A stretch of DNA of 64,000 nt from Longispora fulva. GTDB taxonomy: Bacteria; Actinomycetota; Actinomycetes; Mycobacteriales; Micromonosporaceae. The notes under the pieces were generated by a model. The model ran no database searches, was not told the DNA's origin, and worked only from the letters and a program-made list of their open reading frames with translations. The position numbers and the translations under genes are program-made. This document shows, one piece after another, positions 9,279 through 17,520 of this stretch. The stretch is taken from positions 1,178,001 through 1,242,000 of the forward strand of contig NZ_JADOUF010000001.1 of NCBI RefSeq assembly GCF_015751905.1, in the 5' to 3' direction. Positions within the stretch are counted from its first letter, which is position 1. Every line of letters starts with the position of its first letter.

Positions 9279-10244
9279 TTGACGGACACCACCGCCAGGA
9301 CCCGCCCGCTGGTGGCCCGGATCCGCTGGGCGGCGGTCGCGCTGCTGACCGTGGCCGGCACGACGACGCTGGCACCGCCGGCCGGAGCCCACCCGTCGAC
9401 CGCGCCGCGGCCCACGACGATCGTGCTGCCGGGCGCGACCTCCGCCGAGGGCATCGCCCACGGCCGGGGCTCCACCTTCTTCGCCGGGGATCTGTTCGCC
9501 GGGGACATCTACCGCGGCGACATCCGGCGCGGCAAGGCCGAGCTGTTCATCGACGCCCCGGCCGGACGCCAGGCCACGGGCATGGCGGTCGAGTGCCAGC
9601 ACAACCTGCTGTTCGTCGCCGGCGGGTTCACCGGCCAGGCCTACGTGTACGACGCCGACACCGGGACGACCGTCGCCAGCTACCAGTTCGGCACGGCAGG
9701 CTCCTCCATCGTCAACGACGTGGCCCTCACCCGGGACGGCGCCTGGTTCACCGACTCCCTCCAGCCCAGGCTCTACTTCGTGCCGCTCGACGCGTACGGG
9801 CGTCCCGGCACGTCCAGCGTGCTGGAACTCAGCGGCCCGGCCGCGGACACCAGCGGACAGTTCAACCTCAACGGCATCCGCGCCACCCACGACGGGCGGA
9901 CCCTGATCGTGTCGCACAGCGGCAAGGGGGAGCTGTACACGATCGACCCCGCCACCGGTGCCAGCGCCACCATCGCCGGGGTCAGCGTGCCCAACGTCGA
10001 CGGGATCGAGCTCGACGGACACCGGCTGTGGGCGGTGCAGAACTTCTCCAACCAGGTCAGCAGGGTCCGGCTGAGCGGCGACCTGACCAGCGGCGTGGTC
10101 GAGAAGACGATCACCAGCCCGCTGTTCGAGGTCCCGACGGCCGCCGCCCGGTTCGGTGGCACGCTCGCGGTGGTCAACGCCAAGTTCGACACGGGGGTGC
10201 CGCCGACGGCGACCCAGTACGAGATCGTGCTCGTCGACGCGTGA
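9279..10244 (+). CDS. Secreted SMP-30/NHL-like beta-propeller protein
   Basis: A 321-residue protein with a Sec signal (VARIRWAAVALLTVAGTTTLA, cleavage near GAHP). The rest has propeller-like strand repeats: SAEGIAHGRGSTFFAGDLFAG, NDVALTRDGAWFTDS, LNGIRATHDGRTLIVSHSG and NVDGIELDGHRLWAVQNFSNQ. These match the SMP-30/gluconolactonase-like lactonase fold, a secreted version common in actinomycetes. Substrate is unknown. The TTG at 9279 is chosen because GGAGG lies 4-5 bases upstream and the signal peptide follows directly; upstream frame lacks a site. It stands between two terminators as its own unit. Confidence 0.75.
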   Translation: MTDTTARTRPLVARIRWAAVALLTVAGTTTLAPPAGAHPSTAPRPTTIVLPGATSAEGIAHGRGSTFFAGDLFAGDIYRGDIRRGKAELFIDAPAGRQATGMAVECQHNLLFVAGGFTGQAYVYDADTGTTVASYQFGTAGSSIVNDVALTRDGAWFTDSLQPRLYFVPLDAYGRPGTSSVLELSGPAADTSGQFNLNGIRATHDGRTLIVSHSGKGELYTIDPATGASATIAGVSVPNVDGIELDGHRLWAVQNFSNQVSRVRLSGDLTSGVVEKTITSPLFEVPTAAARFGGTLAVVNAKFDTGVPPTATQYEIVLVDA

Positions 10245-10248
10245 GTCG

Positions 10249-10278
10249 CGGGGCGGGTGGTACCGGCCACCCGCCCCG
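10249..10278 (+). terminator. Terminator after the propeller gene
   Basis: Perfect 12-bp stem (10249-10260 with 10267-10278) and 6-base loop TACCGG, 5 bases after the stop codon. Confidence 0.8.
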
Positions 10279-10426
10279 GTGCGCAGTGGTATGGGGTCGG
10301 ATGCGGCATTTCCCACCCAGATCAGGTGCGCCCTCTTAGGATGGAACCAGGCCGGGACCGCCGTCGGCGTCGACTTCGGGCGATCGCGGCGACCGCGACC
10401 GGACGGCGGACGTTCGGGGGAGTCAC

Positions 10427-12586
10427 GTGCGGCTCAGACGATGGATGCGTTCGGCGATGGCGCTGAGTGTGCTCGTCGCACTCGCAGGCCTGGCCGGGAC
10501 GGCCGGAGTGGCGGCGGTGCTCGTCGCCGGTCAGCGCCACGAGGCCGACGACCAGCTGGAGCGGCGGACCGAGTTGATGGCCGAGGCGGTGACGACCGAG
10601 GCCGACCGGTACGTCGACTCCCTGCGCACCGTCGCGGCGGCCACCGCGGCACTGGAGACGGTGACCGCCTCCCGGTTCGGCCAGGTGGCAGCACCCCTGC
10701 GCCGGATGAGCCTGGCCGGAGCCACCTCGGTGGCGTTCCTGGTGCCCGCCGCCGACGGCCAGATCGCCGGTGTGCAGGCCCTGTGGCGGTCCCGTGGGGC
10801 GCCCGACATCACGTTGACGCCGGTCGGTACGGGCCGCGAGCACATCTTCTCCATCTTCAGCGAGCCGCTGGACGGCGGACTGCCGGCGGCCACGGGCACG
10901 GACGTCACCCAGCTGCCCGCCCCGGACCAGGCCTTCACCCAGGCGCGCAGAACCGGGCAGACCACGGTCTCCGACACCTATCTGCTGCTGCGGGACCGCG
11001 ACGTCCCACCGGACCGGCGGCAACTGTCGTTCATCCTCACCGCCCCGGTCTACGAGCCGCCCGACGCCGCGGGGCGCCAGGAGTTCCGCGGCTGGGTCCT
11101 GATGGGCATCCGGGGGCAGGACTTCATCGGGGCGACCCTGCGCCGCATCTCGCAGAACCTGCTCGACGTGACCCTGAGCGCGCAGGGTGCCGACGGCGCG
11201 CGGGTCGCGGTGGCGACGCTGCGCGCCACGGTGTCCGGCGAACGCGACCTGCACCGCGACGTCGACGTCACCATGGCCCAACGGCAGTGGCACCTGTCCA
11301 TCGAGGCGCCCAGCGAACGCCTGCCCGGGGGCAGCGGCGTCCTACCGACGACGGTCGCCGTCGCCGGCGGGGTGCTCAGCCTGCTCCTGGCCGGCCTCGT
11401 GTACGTGCTGGCCACCGGCCGGCTGCGGGCCCAGAACCAGGTCCGGGCCGCCACGGCGCAGCTCCGGACCGCCGAGACGCAGGCCCGTGACCAGGCGAGC
11501 CTGCTGGAGACGGTCCTCAACAGCATCAACGACGGCGTGGCGGTCGTCGACGCCGACGGCGAGTTCCTCCTGCACAACCCGGCCGCCCGGCGGATCCTGG
11601 GCGTCGAGCTGCACGGCACCGCCCAGCCCGAGTCCTGGCAGGCCCACTACGGCATCTACCGGCCGGACGGCGCGGTGCCGTTCCCGGTCGAGGAACAGCC
11701 CCTGGTCCGGGCGCTGGCCGGCGAGCGCACCGACGGCGTCGAGATGATCATCCGCAACGCGCGGCACCCCAACGGGGTGCGCATCGCCGTCAGCGGCCGC
11801 CCGCTGGGGCCCGGCGCCGGGCGGGCCGGCGCGATGGCCGTCTTCCACGACGTCACGGTCCAGCACGCCAGGGAGGCGGAGCTGACCTCCTTCGCCGGGA
11901 TGGTCGCCCACGACCTGCGCACCCCGTTGACGATGGTCGTCGGCTACACGGAACTGCTCGCCGAGTCCGTGGACGCCGGCAGCGTCGACCCGGTGACCCT
12001 GCGCACGCCGCTGACCCAGATCTCGGCCGGCGCGGAACGGATGGGCCAGCTCATCCACGACCTGCTGGTCTACGCCACGGCCCGCGACGCGTCCCTGCAC
12101 AGCACGGACTTCGACCTGGCCGACGTCGCCTCCGACGTGGTCACCCTCATCACCGCGTCACTGCGGCCGGAGGGCGAGCCGATGCCGAGGGTCACGGTCG
12201 GGGCGCTGCCGACGGTGCGCGCGGACCAGAACATGATCCGCCAGCTGCTCGACAACCTGATCGGCAACGCCATCAAGTACACGCCACCGGGGGAGGCCGC
12301 GAGGATCGACATCTCCGCGTACCCGGACCGGCCGGGCTGGGTGCGGATCGAGGTCGCCGACCACGGCATCGGCGTCCCCGAGGGGCAGCACGAGGCCATC
12401 TTCGCCGGGTTCCACCGCGCGCACGCCGACGGCCCCTACGCCGGTACCGGTCTGGGGTTGGCGATCTGCAAACACATCGTGGACCGGCACGGCGGCACCA
12501 TCGCGGTGGCCGACAATCCGGGCGGCGGCAGCCGGTTCTCGTTCACCCTGGAACTCGGCGACCCGCAGGACCCCGACGGAGAGTGA
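10427..12586 (+). CDS. Membrane sensor histidine kinase with CHASE-like sensor and PAS domain
   Basis: A 719-residue orphan sensor kinase. Membrane helix at about residues 12-34, an extracellular CHASE-like domain to about 300, a second helix around 308-328 (VAVAGGVLSLLLAGLVYVLA), a short coiled coil, a PAS domain near 355-480 and a HisKA dimerisation helix with the phospho-accepting His495 in AHDLRTPLT. The ATPase domain has LLDNLIGNAIKYTPPG, DHGIGVPEG and GTGLGLAICKHIV. GTG at 10427 has GGGGGAG upstream. No receiver-domain partner lies beside it, so its response regulator is elsewhere. Extracellular CHASE domains usually bind small ligands or peptides. It is convergent with the peptide/LuxR unit, ending 51 bases from it. 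Confidence 0.9.
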   Translation: MRLRRWMRSAMALSVLVALAGLAGTAGVAAVLVAGQRHEADDQLERRTELMAEAVTTEADRYVDSLRTVAAATAALETVTASRFGQVAAPLRRMSLAGATSVAFLVPAADGQIAGVQALWRSRGAPDITLTPVGTGREHIFSIFSEPLDGGLPAATGTDVTQLPAPDQAFTQARRTGQTTVSDTYLLLRDRDVPPDRRQLSFILTAPVYEPPDAAGRQEFRGWVLMGIRGQDFIGATLRRISQNLLDVTLSAQGADGARVAVATLRATVSGERDLHRDVDVTMAQRQWHLSIEAPSERLPGGSGVLPTTVAVAGGVLSLLLAGLVYVLATGRLRAQNQVRAATAQLRTAETQARDQASLLETVLNSINDGVAVVDADGEFLLHNPAARRILGVELHGTAQPESWQAHYGIYRPDGAVPFPVEEQPLVRALAGERTDGVEMIIRNARHPNGVRIAVSGRPLGPGAGRAGAMAVFHDVTVQHAREAELTSFAGMVAHDLRTPLTMVVGYTELLAESVDAGSVDPVTLRTPLTQISAGAERMGQLIHDLLVYATARDASLHSTDFDLADVASDVVTLITASLRPEGEPMPRVTVGALPTVRADQNMIRQLLDNLIGNAIKYTPPGEAARIDISAYPDRPGWVRIEVADHGIGVPEGQHEAIFAGFHRAHADGPYAGTGLGLAICKHIVDRHGGTIAVADNPGGGSRFSFTLELGDPQDPDGE

Positions 12587-12637
12587 GATCCGGTCACGCG
12601 GCTTCGTGCCGGCCCTGATGCCAGGTCGGGCGCGAGG

Positions 12638-12778
12638 CTAGTTCGAGGTGCTGGGGATGCAGCCGGCGCACCACTTCCACCAGTCGTCGTCGGTGTCGGA
12701 GACCGTCCCCGCCATCGCGAGTCCCATCATCACGACGGTCATGCAGACGAGGACGATCCGGCGTTTGGTCGAGGTCAT
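12638..12778 (-). CDS. 46-residue secreted peptide precursor, coupled to the LuxR-type gene
   Basis: A small gene with sequence starting MTSTKRRIVLVCMTVVMMGL and ending DTDDDWWKWCAGCIPSTSN. The N-terminus (KRR, then a hydrophobic stretch ending AMAG) looks like a Sec signal peptide. The predicted mature part is a short acidic, Trp-rich peptide with a Cys-Ala-Gly-Cys pair. Its ATG overlaps the TGA of the upstream regulator as ATGA (12775-12778), so translation should be coupled. I do not recognise a family. The arrangement (DNA-binding protein plus tiny exported peptide) suggests a signalling pair, but this is inference. Nothing shows processing or re-import. Confidence 0.7.
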   Translation of the reverse strand: MTSTKRRIVLVCMTVVMMGLAMAGTVSDTDDDWWKWCAGCIPSTSN

Positions 12779-13812
12779 CGGGACTCCTGCGGTGGCGAGG
12801 TGGACGGACGGGAGGGCAGTCGGGCGGCGCGCAGCGTGCCGAGCGCGAGGCCGAGCTGGAAGCGGTTGTCCACCTCGAGCCGGTCCATCAGCCCGCGGAG
12901 GATCTTGGTCACGGTGCGCACGCCGATCTGCAGCTCGCGGGCCGCCGTGTGGTCGGTGTGTCCCTGGACGAGCAGCGCGATCAGGGCCTGTTCCCGCGAC
13001 GTGAGGACTATCTGCGACATCGGGTGCTCCTGCGGGTGGGTGGCCAGCTCCCAGTGCCGTTCGAACTGGGCGAGCAGGGCCTCCACGATCGGGGGCTGGG
13101 AGATCTCAAGGAATCCCCGGTCGAAGTCGTGCGGGACCACGGGGAACAGCGCCACCCTGCGGTCGATGACGAACAACTTGAGGGGTACGTCCAGCGCCTG
13201 GCGCTCCTCCACCCGCAGCTCGCGCAACTCGCGCACCTCGGGGCGCAGGGTGTCGCCGTCGGCGGGCGGCGGGCCGAGCGCGCGGGTGCGCACGCCCCGG
13301 GCCAGCAGCGCGCGGTGGATCGGGATCGCGGCCCGGGCCACCTCGGCGGCGATGGACTGTTCGGTGTTCATCGCCAGGTGTTCGTAGCGTTCGACGGCCA
13401 CGAGGGTGGCGAGCCGGTCGCGGGCGGCCTGTCGGGAGGGCAGGTGCTGGATGCCCGAGCCCAGGACCAGTGCATGGGCGGGCACGAGCTGGCCGACCAG
13501 GTGGTGGTGCCGTTCGGCCTGTTCGGTCCGGTCGACGAGGCGGAGCCTGCCGGTGCGCAGCGCCGCGACGACCTGGTCCGGCGGCCGGGCCAGCCACCGG
13601 CGCTGGTGGTCGGTGCGCACGGCCCCGAAGGTGTGCAGCTCGGCGAGGGCGTCGCGGACCCGGCGGTGCGGGAGGCCCAGGTCCCGGCCGAGCCGGGTGG
13701 CGGTGCGGGGCCCGCAGGTCACGATCGTGCGGTAGACGAGGTCCGCGTCCGGGGACCTGCCCCAGCGGACCAGGGAGGGCACCGGGGCGCCGGGCACGAC
13801 GGCATCGGTCAC
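12775..13812 (-). CDS. Two-HTH regulator: TrmB-like N-terminal and LuxR-type C-terminal helix-turn-helix
   Basis: A 345-residue regulator. Residues about 25-75 form a winged helix like TrmB (YRTIVTCGPRTATRLGRDLG, then RRVRDALAELHTFGAV). The middle is an effector-like domain. The last 65 residues are a LuxR/GerE helix-turn-helix (LTSREQALIALLVQGHTDHT, then VRTVTKILRGLMDRLEVDNR). There is no receiver or autoinducer domain. GTG at 13812 follows GGAGG by 5 bases. It is the first gene of a two-gene unit with the 46-residue peptide and is divergent from a secreted LamG-like protein at 14117, a likely target. Confidence 0.85.
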   Translation of the reverse strand: MTDAVVPGAPVPSLVRWGRSPDADLVYRTIVTCGPRTATRLGRDLGLPHRRVRDALAELHTFGAVRTDHQRRWLARPPDQVVAALRTGRLRLVDRTEQAERHHHLVGQLVPAHALVLGSGIQHLPSRQAARDRLATLVAVERYEHLAMNTEQSIAAEVARAAIPIHRALLARGVRTRALGPPPADGDTLRPEVRELRELRVEERQALDVPLKLFVIDRRVALFPVVPHDFDRGFLEISQPPIVEALLAQFERHWELATHPQEHPMSQIVLTSREQALIALLVQGHTDHTAARELQIGVRTVTKILRGLMDRLEVDNRFQLGLALGTLRAARLPSRPSTSPPQESR

Positions 13813-14116
13813 GTCGACCTCCTCCCGGGCTGGTGCGATCCGTCTGCCGGGATGTGCCGGGCTCGACGACAGGCCCACCATAGCGGATCACGGATGTCGA
13901 TGGCATCGGTCGACTCCACGATGGACGGAACGCGTGATCGCGCACTGCGCTCCGGCGTCGGAAGGAGGACATTCCCAGCGTGTGGCCCCTATGCGGGGTT
14001 CGTGAGGTGGCGTGCGTCATTACGCATCCCATTGACCGACATCGTCATCAGTTCGACGCTGTTGCTCGGGCGGGCCGGACGGGCCGCCCGGGACACACCG
14101 ACGGAAGGGCTGACTG
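13813..14116. other. Divergent intergenic region, LuxR-type gene / LamG-like gene
   Basis: 304 bases without a supported gene. TTGACC at about 14034 lies 80 bases before the secreted-protein ATG and may be a -35 element, but no convincing -10 follows at the correct distance. I see no strong palindrome. Confidence 0.35.
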
Positions 14117-14848
14117 ATGAAGCTTCGGCGATATGCGGCAGGTCTCGTTCTCGTGGTCGCGGGGATCCTCGCGGTGCCCAGTTCGGCGCAGGCGGCGGGC
14201 TCGCCCGCCGGGGGTGCCCAGATGTGGCTGCGCGCGGACGTGGGCGTCCAGGTGAACGCCACGAACGTGACCACCTGGTACGACCAGAGCGGCAACGCGC
14301 GCAACGGCACGATGACCACGCCCAGCCGCCAGCCCACCCTGGTGCAGGGAGCGCTCAACGGCCAGCCCGTGATCCACTTCAACGGGGCGCAGTCGCTCAA
14401 CCTGCTGACGCCGGTGAACCCGTACACGTTCTCGGTGTTCATCGTGGGCCGCAACCAGAAGAGTTCCGGCTTCAGCATGATCCTCGGGCCGAGCGGCAAC
14501 TTCCCGAACAACCAGATCCGCTGGGAGAACAGCAGCCAGGCCCTGTTCGTGGGGACTGCCAACAACTTCCCGGTCGTGACCAGCACGATCGGCAACACCA
14601 TGGTCTTCCACGAGCTGTCGGCCCGCTACGACGGCTCCACGATGTGGGTCTACCGCGACGGCAACCTGGTCTCCGCCCACTCGTTCTCGACGAGCGGCGG
14701 CTGGACCCTGGCGTCGATCGGCTCCTGGTACTCCTCGCAGTTCATGATCGGTGATCTCGCCGAGGTCATCGTCTACCCCACCGCCCTGTCCGACGCGGAT
14801 CGGACCGCGACGGACAGCTACCTGCGCTCGAAGTACGCGCTCCCGTAA
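14117..14848 (+). CDS. Secreted LamG/concanavalin-like lectin-fold protein
   Basis: A 243-residue protein with a Sec signal (MKLRRYAAGLVLVVAGILAV, cleavage after AQA). The mature part is one jelly-roll domain: MWLRADVGV, TTWYDQSGNARNGT, GQPVIHFNG, FSVFIVGRNQ, MWVYRDGNLVSAHSF and the closing IGDLAEVIVYPTALSDADR, all typical of LamG-type concanavalin-like domains that bind glycans. No catalytic site is apparent. ATG at 14117 has GGAAGG 9 bases upstream. It is divergent from the two-HTH regulator. Confidence 0.8.
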   Translation: MKLRRYAAGLVLVVAGILAVPSSAQAAGSPAGGAQMWLRADVGVQVNATNVTTWYDQSGNARNGTMTTPSRQPTLVQGALNGQPVIHFNGAQSLNLLTPVNPYTFSVFIVGRNQKSSGFSMILGPSGNFPNNQIRWENSSQALFVGTANNFPVVTSTIGNTMVFHELSARYDGSTMWVYRDGNLVSAHSFSTSGGWTLASIGSWYSSQFMIGDLAEVIVYPTALSDADRTATDSYLRSKYALP

Positions 14849-14855
14849 CGGAGGC

Positions 14856-14888
14856 CGGCCCGGCCCGGGGTGTCCCCGGGCCGGGCCG
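14856..14888 (+). terminator. Very strong terminator after LamG-like gene
   Basis: Perfect 15-bp stem (14856-14870 with 14874-14888) and a 3-base loop TGT, 7 bases past the stop. Confidence 0.85.
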
Positions 14889-14945
14889 TACGTCGTCGTG
14901 GCCGGGCGGCGGCCGGGGGTGGCCAGGGAGATCCGGCCCGGAGGT

Positions 14946-14981
14946 GGCGCGGGCGGCCCGGAGATCCGGGCCGCCCGCGCC
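14946..14981 (-). terminator. Very strong terminator after the phospholipase gene
   Basis: Perfect inverted repeat 14946-14961 with 14966-14981 around a 4-base loop, 6 bases beyond the stop of the convergent phospholipase gene. Together with the hairpin at 14856 it separates two convergent transcripts. Confidence 0.85.
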
Positions 14982-14987
14982 GTCAGG

Positions 14988-17480
14988 TCACAGGCCCAGG
15001 GGCGTGACCGCCGCGGCCGACGTCCACGGCCCCCGGTTGCCCGCCTCGGTGAGCGCCCGGAACCGCACGTACCGCCCGTTCACCGCCGTGGCGAACGTGA
15101 CCGTCTTCGCGGCGGCCGTGTCCGGGAACGTGCCGGTGGCCGCGACCGTCCACGTGGTCCCGTCGACGCTGGTCGCGATCTCGTACTGGCCGACCCGGCC
15201 GTTGGAGCCGCCGTCCTGCCGCGGGGTGTAGGTCAGCCCGGTCAGCGACTTCGACGCCCCGGCGTCCAGCTGCAGCTCGTGCGGCAGGGGAGCCGTCGCC
15301 GACGACCACTGGGTGTGCCAGATCGTGGCGGGGTTGCCGTCGACGGCGTTGACCGCAGCGCCGTTCTCGCCCACGGTCTCCTGGCTGTCGAAGTAGGTCA
15401 CGGTCACCGGGAGCGGCCCGGGGACCGGGGTCGCCGTGCCGAACGCCGGGTCGGAGGTCGACGGCGCGCCGGTCTCCATGTGGCCGGCGAACCGGCGGAG
15501 GAATCCGTCGGTGGTGTTCGCGGTCGCGGTCAGGTCGTACCAGTTGCTGGCCGGCGCGACGTTCCACGAGTCGGTGACCGTGGCCCCGGCCGCGACGGCG
15601 TAGTTCCACGGCCCGTCGGTGCGGTACCGGTTGGCCTTCACGGTGACCGTGCACGCCTTGGTGCCCGAGTTCTTCATGTCCAGGTAGACCTTGCCCTCGG
15701 TGGGCGCGTAGCGCAGGGTCACCTCCGGGTTGGCGTTGCCGCTGGTGGTGGCCGTGACCCGGTTGCCGGCGAACTGGCGCAGGAACCCGTTCGGGCCGAT
15801 CGCGGTCACGTCGTAGGAGCCGGTCGGGGTGCCGGCCGCGATGTAGTCCGACAGCGTCTTGCCGGCCTCCACCGTGTACCGCCACGGCCCGTCGGTGCGG
15901 AACTGGTTGGCGTACAGGGTGAAGTGCGCCCCGGACGTGCCCGTGTTGGCGAAGTCGATCCAGAACTTGTCGGACGCGACCCGCCCGTTCGCCGCGAGCG
16001 TGTACGGCAGCGCCCGGGCCGGCCGGGTGCCCGACTCCTGTGCCGGCAACGCCTGCGCGGCCGGCACCCCGGGCGCGGGCAGCGTCGAGCACTGGGTGTC
16101 GGCCCCCGACGGGTACCCGGTGGTCGACGGCAGCGACGGCCATGTGGTGTTCGGGTTGGCGAAATCGAACGCGCTGGTCAGGTCACCGGTGACGCTGCGG
16201 CGCCACGCGGAGATGTTCGGCTCGGCCACCCCGAACCGCTTCTCGAGGAACCGGAGCACCGACGTGTGGTCGAACACCTCCGAGCACACCCAGCCGCCCC
16301 GCGACCAGGGCGAGACCAGGATCATCGGCACCCGGAAGCCCAGGCCGATCGGGCTGCCCGAGTTGATCTCGCCCGTGGTGGACACGGTCGACAGCCCGTT
16401 GGACGAGGACGTCGCGGGCACCGGCGGCGGCACGTGGTCGTAGAAGCCGCCGTTCTCGTCGTAGTTGAGGATGAAGACCGTCTTGTCGTACACGGCCGGG
16501 TTCGCCGCGAGCTTGGCCAGCAGCCGCGCGGTCAGGTCCTCGCCGTAGGCCGGCTTGTAGTTGGCGTGTTCGGAAAGGTTGGCCGGGGCGATGATCCAGG
16601 AGACCTGGGGGAGGGTGCCGGCGGCCACGTCGTCGCCGAACGCCTTGACGAAGTCGGCCTGCTTGGCCAGCCCCTTCGTGTACAGCGCGCTGGACGTCGA
16701 GGCGTTCTTGAAGTTCTTGAACCACGCGAAGGCGTTGTCGTCGAAGTTGTCGTTCTCCTGGTACACCTTCCAGCTGACCCCGGCCGCCTCCAGCCGCTCG
16801 GCGTAGGTGGTCCAGGTGAATCCGGCCGCCGGCTCGGTGTTGTCCAGCACGGCGGACTGGCCGACGGACAGCCCGTTGGAGCCGGTGAACAGGTGCAGCC
16901 GGTTCGGGTTGGTCTGGGTGAACGTGGACTGGAAGTTGTGGTCGCAGATCGTGAACGCGTCGGCGAGGGAGTAGTAGAACGGCAGGTCCGCGCGGGTGAA
17001 CGTGCCCATGCCCAGCCCCGGGGTGCGCGCGGTGTTCCACGCGTCGTACTTGCCGTTGTTGTAGATCGCGATGTCGGTGGAGTAGTTCATCGCCGGGGCG
17101 TTCGCGCAGATCGCCGACGTGGTGCCGGTGTTCATCCGGAACGGCAGGATGTACCCGTCGGGGTTGGACGGGTACGGCTGGTGGAACACCGACTTCCCGC
17201 TGGGCAGCCGGATCGCCGTCGGGTCGGCGAAGCCGCGCACGCCGCGCATCGTGCCGTAGTAGTGGTCGAAGGCCCGGTTCTCCTGCATGAAGATGACGAC
17301 GTGCTCGACGTCGGCGATCGTGCCGGTGGCCGCCGCCGCGGCCTCGGCGGGCGCGGCGGTGACCGCGTCGGCGACGCCGATCCCGGGCAGCGCGGTGGCC
17401 GCCGCGACGCCGGCCGCCCCCGCCGTCATGCCGAGGACGCGCCGACGACTGACCGTCGACTGGGGGTTGTGTTCTTCCAC
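14988..17480 (-). CDS. Tat-exported phosphocholine-specific-type phospholipase C with C-terminal carbohydrate-binding-like domain
   Basis: An 830-residue exported enzyme. Tat signal VSRRRVLGMTAGAAGVAAAT; phosphoesterase domain (about 55-440) with VEHVVIFMQENRAFDHYYGT, HNFQSTFTQTNPNRL, ILNYDENGGFYDHVPPP and the metal-site VFDHTSVLRFLEKRF. Two bacterial phospholipase C C-terminal domains follow (each with YANQFRTDGPW- or KANRYRTDGPW-type motif), then an F5/8 type C-like domain (about 690-830; ETVGENGAAVNAVDGNPATI). Family members hydrolyse phosphatidylcholine or sphingomyelin outside the cell. GTG at 17480 follows GGGAGG. The added F5/8-like module probably targets the enzyme to a surface. A strong terminator ends the transcript. 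Confidence 0.9.
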   Translation of the reverse strand: MEEHNPQSTVSRRRVLGMTAGAAGVAAATALPGIGVADAVTAAPAEAAAAATGTIADVEHVVIFMQENRAFDHYYGTMRGVRGFADPTAIRLPSGKSVFHQPYPSNPDGYILPFRMNTGTTSAICANAPAMNYSTDIAIYNNGKYDAWNTARTPGLGMGTFTRADLPFYYSLADAFTICDHNFQSTFTQTNPNRLHLFTGSNGLSVGQSAVLDNTEPAAGFTWTTYAERLEAAGVSWKVYQENDNFDDNAFAWFKNFKNASTSSALYTKGLAKQADFVKAFGDDVAAGTLPQVSWIIAPANLSEHANYKPAYGEDLTARLLAKLAANPAVYDKTVFILNYDENGGFYDHVPPPVPATSSSNGLSTVSTTGEINSGSPIGLGFRVPMILVSPWSRGGWVCSEVFDHTSVLRFLEKRFGVAEPNISAWRRSVTGDLTSAFDFANPNTTWPSLPSTTGYPSGADTQCSTLPAPGVPAAQALPAQESGTRPARALPYTLAANGRVASDKFWIDFANTGTSGAHFTLYANQFRTDGPWRYTVEAGKTLSDYIAAGTPTGSYDVTAIGPNGFLRQFAGNRVTATTSGNANPEVTLRYAPTEGKVYLDMKNSGTKACTVTVKANRYRTDGPWNYAVAAGATVTDSWNVAPASNWYDLTATANTTDGFLRRFAGHMETGAPSTSDPAFGTATPVPGPLPVTVTYFDSQETVGENGAAVNAVDGNPATIWHTQWSSATAPLPHELQLDAGASKSLTGLTYTPRQDGGSNGRVGQYEIATSVDGTTWTVAATGTFPDTAAAKTVTFATAVNGRYVRFRALTEAGNRGPWTSAAAVTPLGL

Positions 17481-17520
17481 GGTTGCCTCCCGGATGTACC
17501 GCTGGCTGGTCGCCCGGAAT

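Follow-up and report, generated by a model that had tools for sequence, protein, structure and literature searches.

A 64,000-nucleotide stretch of the Longispora fulva genome (contig NZ_JADOUF010000001.1, positions 1,178,001 to 1,242,000; this whole stretch is the window, and positions are counted from its first letter) contains a regulator gene overlapping the gene of a tiny, putatively exported peptide. This arrangement is one copy of a conserved family of pairs in the soil-bacterial family Micromonosporaceae, each composed of a regulator and a predicted exported partner protein ending in a C-x2-C (CxxC) tail. The pair plausibly represents an undescribed signalling system: no description of it or of its kind was found in the literature searched, which lay mostly outside subscription papers. 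The reading tentatively preferred here, held at somewhat under even confidence, is that of an autoregulated receptor/exported-ligand module, analogous to the RRNPP systems of peptide signalling but not a member of them. The two genes are the following.

12775-13812, minus strand: regulator of 345 residues with a GTG start, comprising a TrmB-like winged helix-turn-helix (HTH), a probable TrmB-like central domain and a LuxR/GerE HTH
12638-12778, minus strand: predicted exported peptide of 46 residues, whose ATG overlaps the regulator stop (ATGA)

A profile search (E up to 1e-60) found homologues of the regulator in 74 of 354 Micromonosporaceae genomes and 19 of 44 genera, with 129 matches summed. 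After removal of duplicates (L035, a near-copy with a partner of its own, and three further, truncated views of a single regulator), 128 distinct regulators were left: a first set of 116 and the 12 weakest, added later. A first-pass annotation of the window, made from the sequence alone, had suggested a peptide signalling pair and had named absence of the small gene beside most homologues as evidence that would speak against it; a gene for a protein with a C-terminal C-x2-C, nearly always with a signal-peptide-like start, adjoined 118 of the 128 regulators. The partner was downstream in 96 members of the first set, upstream in 12, convergent in one and not adjacent in 7, and was present at 9 of the 12 weakest regulators. 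Partners of L057, L134, L140, both L120 regulators and the nine regulators of a reversed-order clade were assigned by reading the loci, and an automatic match at L128 was dropped as spurious. Gene order within the pair changed twice on the regulator tree, the partner occurring in either order.

The automatic rule (signal-peptide-like start, C-x2-C no more than 24 residues from the end, either strand, 1.4 kb on each side) was satisfied at 106 of the 116 family regulators vs. none of 14 more distantly related TrmB/LuxR proteins; at one of the latter, an Arg-rich frame had passed a looser downstream rule. More than 1.8 kb away from regulators, the background was 4 such open reading frames (ORFs) in 366,233 bp, including one genuine family member. 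Among the 96 downstream partners found by rule (a count including L120 and leaving out L057), 93 passed a crude signal-peptide rule (L023, L080 and L107 failed) and 72 overlapped the regulator stop.

Ten regulators lacked an adjacent intact partner. For five (L071, L089, L102, L128 and L149) the genome holds an unlinked partner gene, with which, judging from like tails in sister regulators, the regulator would belong. L201 has a short partner just after the regulator, its frame broken between the signal peptide and an FCGTCV tail, near a GGCACC repeat; this may be a pseudogene, an error or phase variation. L203, which scored 226 bits and has no operator, seems to lie outside the family, and no partner was found for L078, L130 and L200.

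The home genome of the window pair (8.68 Mb, single contig) carries three closer regulator paralogues, 38-41% identical to the window regulator; after each comes a gene, overlapping or abutting it, for a predicted exported protein of 177-187 residues ending in DPGCVYCWTEPSND, DPGCGNCWGGPDAPPVGGGKG or GPTCGFCWPVSG; these tails are C-x2-C, as in the window peptide. The same genome also has, at 2961650-2961763 (minus strand, L012), a probable remnant of 38 residues, 68% of them identical to the LuxR part at the C-terminus of the window regulator. Another genome, G320, holds six pairs with different tails. In class-wide samples of 394 genomes, no other holder of the pair turned up, though a looser relative could have escaped: outside the home genome the regulator search (E up to 1e-60) gave a single weak match with no pair beside it, and the search for the partner domain described below (E up to 1e-5) gave none. 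The window pair fits the family by its high profile score (437 bits, the regulator being itself a row of the profile; non-family relatives scored 215 or less), by its adjacent exported CxxC-tailed gene, and by an operator with two mismatches and an exact palindromic core.

The features of the two window products were as follows.

13597-13737, minus strand: N-terminal TrmB-type winged HTH, regulator residues 26-72 (Pfam PF01978)
13039-13581, minus strand: central domain, probably TrmB-like (sensor), about residues 78-258, limits estimated (family profile vs. TrmBL2)
12853-13008, minus strand: LuxR/GerE HTH, regulator residues 269-320 (Pfam PF00196)
12710-12778, minus strand: signal-peptide-like segment, peptide residues 1-23, ending A-M-A (sequence reading and crude hydropathy rule)
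12653-12673, minus strand: tail core W-C-A-G-C-I-P, with the CxxC at 12659-12670 (orthologue L033 and family-wide CxxC)

Both Pfam domains of the regulator exceeded their cut-offs (TrmB 27.9 bits vs. 25.6; GerE/LuxR 27.3 bits vs. 23.5), bearing out the two HTH types named in the first-pass annotation, and Pfam gave no match to a receiver or to an autoinducer-binding domain, also as annotated. Only TrmB and HTH matches were obtained in Pfam and NCBIfam, with no tetratricopeptide repeat (TPR) among them. A profile of 38 relatives aligned weakly, over positions 19-256, to the TrmBL2 structures 5box/5bpd (E 3e-4), so that the centre of the regulator is probably TrmB-like as well; the profile also matched LuxR-type structures. 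An AlphaFold model of the regulator was poor (predicted local distance difference test, pLDDT, 54.5; 3 sequences) and too weak for fold comparison. An alternative ATG start at 13881 (368 residues) was disfavoured because the alignment of relatives starts near 13812.

Re-reading the coordinates confirmed the 46-residue gene, its signal-peptide-like start and its ATGA overlap with the regulator. AGGAG precedes the ATG, and the product has a basic N-terminus, a hydrophobic stretch, the A-M-A site and the tail DTDDDWWKWCAGCIPSTSN. The peptide had no match in Pfam and one in NCBIfam (E 0.095, far below the cut-off). The nearest orthologue, L033 (regulator 69% identical), encodes a peptide ending WPHCAGCIP, and the two peptides have the tail W-x2-CAGCIP in common and little else. 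The frame is thus conserved at the protein level in its tail, the rest having diverged. The WW-x-W-C-x2-C tail expected to be conserved was not found as such: the family keeps the CxxC only, and WW-x-W (WWKW in the window) was rejected as a conserved motif, being confined to the window copy.

The 109 adjacent partners of the first set comprised 32 short proteins and 77 with a domain of about 130 residues. The chain stopped exactly one residue past the CxxC in 69 of 109 tails, and the residue after the CxxC was V in 33, L in 24, W in 16, F in 11, P in 8 and another or none in 17 (V, L, W or F in 84 of 109). Invariant residues in 25 aligned long partners were only Met1 and six cysteines, four in the domain and two in the tail. 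Partners of 350-370 residues at L082, L093, L098, L104, L131 and L137 are tandem duplicates of domain and tail; in five of them (all but L082) the first tail has C-x3-C instead of C-x2-C. A known protein family for the partner was rejected: ten long partners had no Pfam match, the NCBIfam matches of seven long and three short partners did not go below E 0.43, and PADLOC gave nothing for four. The AlphaFold model of a long partner (pLDDT 50.3, 2 sequences) was too poor for a fold search.

Short and domain-bearing forms required 12 switches on a quick maximum-likelihood tree of the 116 regulators, at least 10 of these switches being forced by well-supported branches (9 and 9 without the three doubtful short calls L073, L080 and L118). 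The tail was kept across a switch: the 68-residue L106 ends GNCGTCF, the long L016 GNCGTCF and the long L121 GGNCGTCF. Repeated loss of the domain is the simpler reading because the long domain is homologous; exchange between pairs could also account for the switches. A domain of about 130 residues that is repeatedly absent while the tail stays argues that the CxxC tail is the indispensable part of the partner, and supports the tail as its functional part. Between short forms whose regulators were 65-80% identical (28 comparisons), variable tail positions were 51% identical vs. 26% for the preceding 20 residues, and six close short pairs had an overall ratio of non-synonymous to synonymous differences (pN/pS) of 0.48.

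Most pairs are preceded by a conserved candidate operator. The motif TTGC-N8-GCAA was present in 54 of 107 upstream regions (0.6 expected). Allowing up to one mismatch, the palindrome TTGC[AG]-N6-[TC]GCAA was found before 82 of 116 regulators (400 nt searched upstream, 800 nt for the nine reversed-order regulators), mostly 110-160 nt ahead of the conserved part of the regulator; among shuffled stretches, 18 of 580 had it. Six of the 82 matches belong to reversed-order regulators, where the operator precedes the partner gene. Of 13 partner genes that have no full family regulator next to them, eight had the operator within 600 nt upstream (7 perfect), and two of the five without it adjoin truncated regulators. 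Partner genes without adjacent regulator and with an operator upstream were L165, L166, L167, L169, L170, L171, L176 and L177. An operator at regulator-less partner genes suggests control in trans. The operator class could be assigned for 80 of the 116 regulators: the recognition-helix residue corresponding to T302 in the window was Ala in 24 of 24 TTGCA and 0 of 56 TTGCG regulators, the strongest split of the regulator columns tested. This residue sits after the conserved T-V of the recognition helix, and its counterpart in NarL touches bases. The corresponding window features were:

14012-14027, no strand assigned: operator candidate GTGCGTCATTACGCAT, with the exact inverted repeat TGCG-N6-CGCA at 14013-14026
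12907-12909, minus strand: codon of T302, the recognition-helix residue covarying with operator base 5

The orthologue of the window pair carries GTGCGGGATCGCGCAC as its operator. Promoter and terminator scans found nothing, and an annotated RNA element was rejected, as none reached the gathering score in window positions 10000-17500. Small ORFs with only a LuxR/GerE HTH were observed just upstream of the regulator in L059, L064, L076, L077, L082, L092, L094, L096, L097, L105, L116 and L123, and after or overlapping the partner end in L017 and L196; at seven loci with such ORFs a good operator lies upstream of the small ORF, about 390 nt before the regulator.

Under the receptor/ligand reading, the regulator, presumably a dimer, would bind TTGC[AG]N6[TC]GCAA through its LuxR-type HTH and control its own operon, an autoregulation supported by the predicted operators. 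Translational coupling (ATGA) would yield the partner together with the regulator, and the predicted signal peptides support its export. Outside the cell, the CxxC would probably close a small disulphide ring. The cognate signal may then be the tail itself or a cleaved fragment of it, which we infer would be sensed, after re-uptake, by the TrmB-like central domain of the regulator and would lead to density- or redox-dependent autoinduction; in the window, the signal would be a short peptide around WKWCAGCIPSTSN. A wider proposal, less likely than not, is that of a new class of actinomycete peptide communication in which TrmB/LuxR one-component receptors, each paired with an exported carrier, would take the CxxC-hydrophobic C-terminus of that carrier, oxidised extracellularly, as signal, the circuit would read both density and extracellular redox, and large carriers and tiny peptides would be alternative vehicles of the same tail.

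Several results weigh against the tail as a signal. TrmB proteins are known to bind sugars or DNA, not peptides, and a plain pheromone would need no domain, which 77 of the 109 partners, with 129-370 residues, possess. In the domain forms (65-80% regulator identity) the tail was 53% identical vs. 47% for the preceding 20 residues, a slight contrast. Selection in the six close short pairs was no stronger on the tail stretch than on the rest (19 non-synonymous and 10 synonymous changes, 20 of these 29 from a single pair that has a long stretch beyond the CxxC). Tails within genomes with two or more pairs showed no excess difference (0 of 65 identical, 1.4 expected). No regulator residue covaried convincingly with the tail once relatedness was allowed for; the uncorrected sign-test value of 0.03 at positions 130 and 138, in the central domain, is not significant when the many columns and the eight traits are taken into account.

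Operator and neighbourhood add to this side. Because just two changes of operator class occur on the tree, the helix/operator link rests on those two and its relatedness-corrected support is 2/2, no more. The window operator departs from the consensus at two positions, as do, with two mismatches or fewer, 195 of 580 shuffled stretches, but TGCGNNATNNCGCA occurs at just two places in the home genome, one being the window site (the backward pattern occurs at four). This site type therefore has one further copy there. Twelve sites of the strict operator TTGCGNNATNNCGCAA were counted in ten genomes, 9 before pairs or unlinked partners and 3 elsewhere (backward control, 1); three of the ten, one of them (G078) outside the 74 regulator holders, have no site, and weaker or diverged sites are missed. 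With so few other strict sites, no clear output regulon was found in the genomes tested. Clustering of neighbours within 4 kb at 80 loci (ORFs of at least 90 residues, top 25 clusters) gave only the regulator (76 loci) and the long partner (31 loci) as widely recurrent, so that no dedicated exporter, protease or importer is evident there. For the suggestion in the first-pass annotation, therefore, the layout stands as real and recurrent, and its signalling role is weakened by the size of most partners and the few strict operator sites.

It is almost as likely as signalling that the partner is itself the output, an autoregulated exported effector: an envelope or secreted protein whose CxxC tail would crosslink, anchor, or bind a metal or thiol, under a one-component switch that senses a sugar or metabolite and has a single target. 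The very few strict operator sites suit such a narrow switch, as do the TrmB-like sensor domain of the regulator, the domain in 77 of 109 partners, Cys-rich in the 25 aligned, and the six tandem duplicates. It is harder to reconcile with at least 9 domain/tail-only switches on the tree, the tail-only forms keeping just a short stretch after the signal peptide, with the tail at the very C-terminus in 69 of 109 partners, and with the one dedicated regulator that each effector would require.

Secretion-coupled feedback, which we consider improbable, would have the unexported precursor, with reduced cysteines, switch the regulator in the cytoplasm until export relieves it, re-uptake being unneeded. 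The start/stop overlap in 72 of 96 downstream partners would co-produce both proteins as such a scheme demands, no importer is evident nearby, and the autoregulation is narrow; on the other hand, the signal peptide and linker are poorly conserved, and five genomes combine a partnerless regulator with an unlinked partner gene, so that strict coupling is not essential. Lastly, a chance origin of the 46-residue frame, behind a regulator of an ordinary kind, can practically be dismissed, since, although it is short and its composition could come by chance in GC-rich DNA, a partner adjoins nearly all regulators, the orthologue keeps the tail, close short pairs show purifying selection and the background is just 4 such ORFs in 366 kb.

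The neighbouring genes of the window pair were also considered.

14117-14848, plus strand: secreted LamG-like gene (Laminin_G_3), divergent, with the operator candidate 89 bp upstream
10427-12586, plus strand: CHASE/PAS/HisKA kinase gene

Both genes lie as first annotated, divergent and convergent respectively, and the participation then suggested for either was rejected, since neither is beside the orthologous pair in L150 (regulator 69% identical). Co-regulation of the LamG gene in the home genome alone may occur, because the operator lies between it and the regulator. Lineage-specific neighbours exist across the family, e.g. a probable SARP-type regulator in 9 loci, and a recurrent family of exported proteins was seen beside the pairs at L075, L084, L127 and L135 (upstream, opposite strand), and also at L108 and L111. 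A ribosomally synthesised peptide with a modifying enzyme was rejected, less firmly, as no further widely recurrent family was found within 4 kb of the 80 loci.

Peptide-based cell-cell signalling is well described in Firmicutes and poorly known in actinomycetes, which make many antibiotics. The pair is a compact module of two genes for which an operator and an active tail can be predicted and whose natural variants either have or lack the carrier domain. Should the tail be the signal, gene control in Actinoplanes, Micromonospora and relatives could be addressed with a short synthetic handle; should the partner instead be an effector, it would still represent an exported protein family, apparently undescribed, that has its own dedicated switch.

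Compared with known systems, the regulator has in common with TrmB/TrmBL2 the N-terminal winged HTH (PF01978, above cut-off) and the weak TrmBL2 alignment over profile positions 19-256, but adds a C-terminal LuxR HTH and an exported partner gene. It shares with LuxR/NarL-type regulators the C-terminal GerE HTH and a palindromic operator, the fifth base of which varies with a residue of the recognition helix; unlike LuxR receptors of acyl-homoserine lactones and LuxR/NarL response regulators, it has no autoinducer-binding or receiver domain match in Pfam. Agr-type cyclic peptides would be resembled in the possible small ring near the C-terminus of the exported peptide, but no processing-enzyme or sensor-kinase family is widely recurrent beside the pairs.

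The closest likeness considered was to RRNPP systems (Rap-Phr, PlcR-PapR, NprR-NprX, Rgg-SHP, PrgX-PrgQ), which also have adjacent, often overlapping genes for a regulator and an exported small protein, and an active part likely to be C-terminal, as here. Their criteria are a Sec-secreted and matured propeptide of 10-100 residues, a receptor of 250-500 residues with TPRs, and adjacent genes (PMC10075063). By these criteria, the window regulator, in which no TPR was found and which has TrmB and LuxR HTHs, is therefore not an RRNPP member; the family differs further in the domain of the 77 partners, in a tail defined by CxxC and in its occurrence in Actinomycetota. The size of the window regulator (345 residues), that of its partner (46 residues, although just 32 of 109 are within the range family-wide) and the gene adjacency (ATGA overlap; 118 of 128 across the family) agree with the same criteria; as for Sec secretion, the partner has a start that looks like a signal peptide by the crude rule. 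The pair may work like an RRNPP system despite its non-membership.
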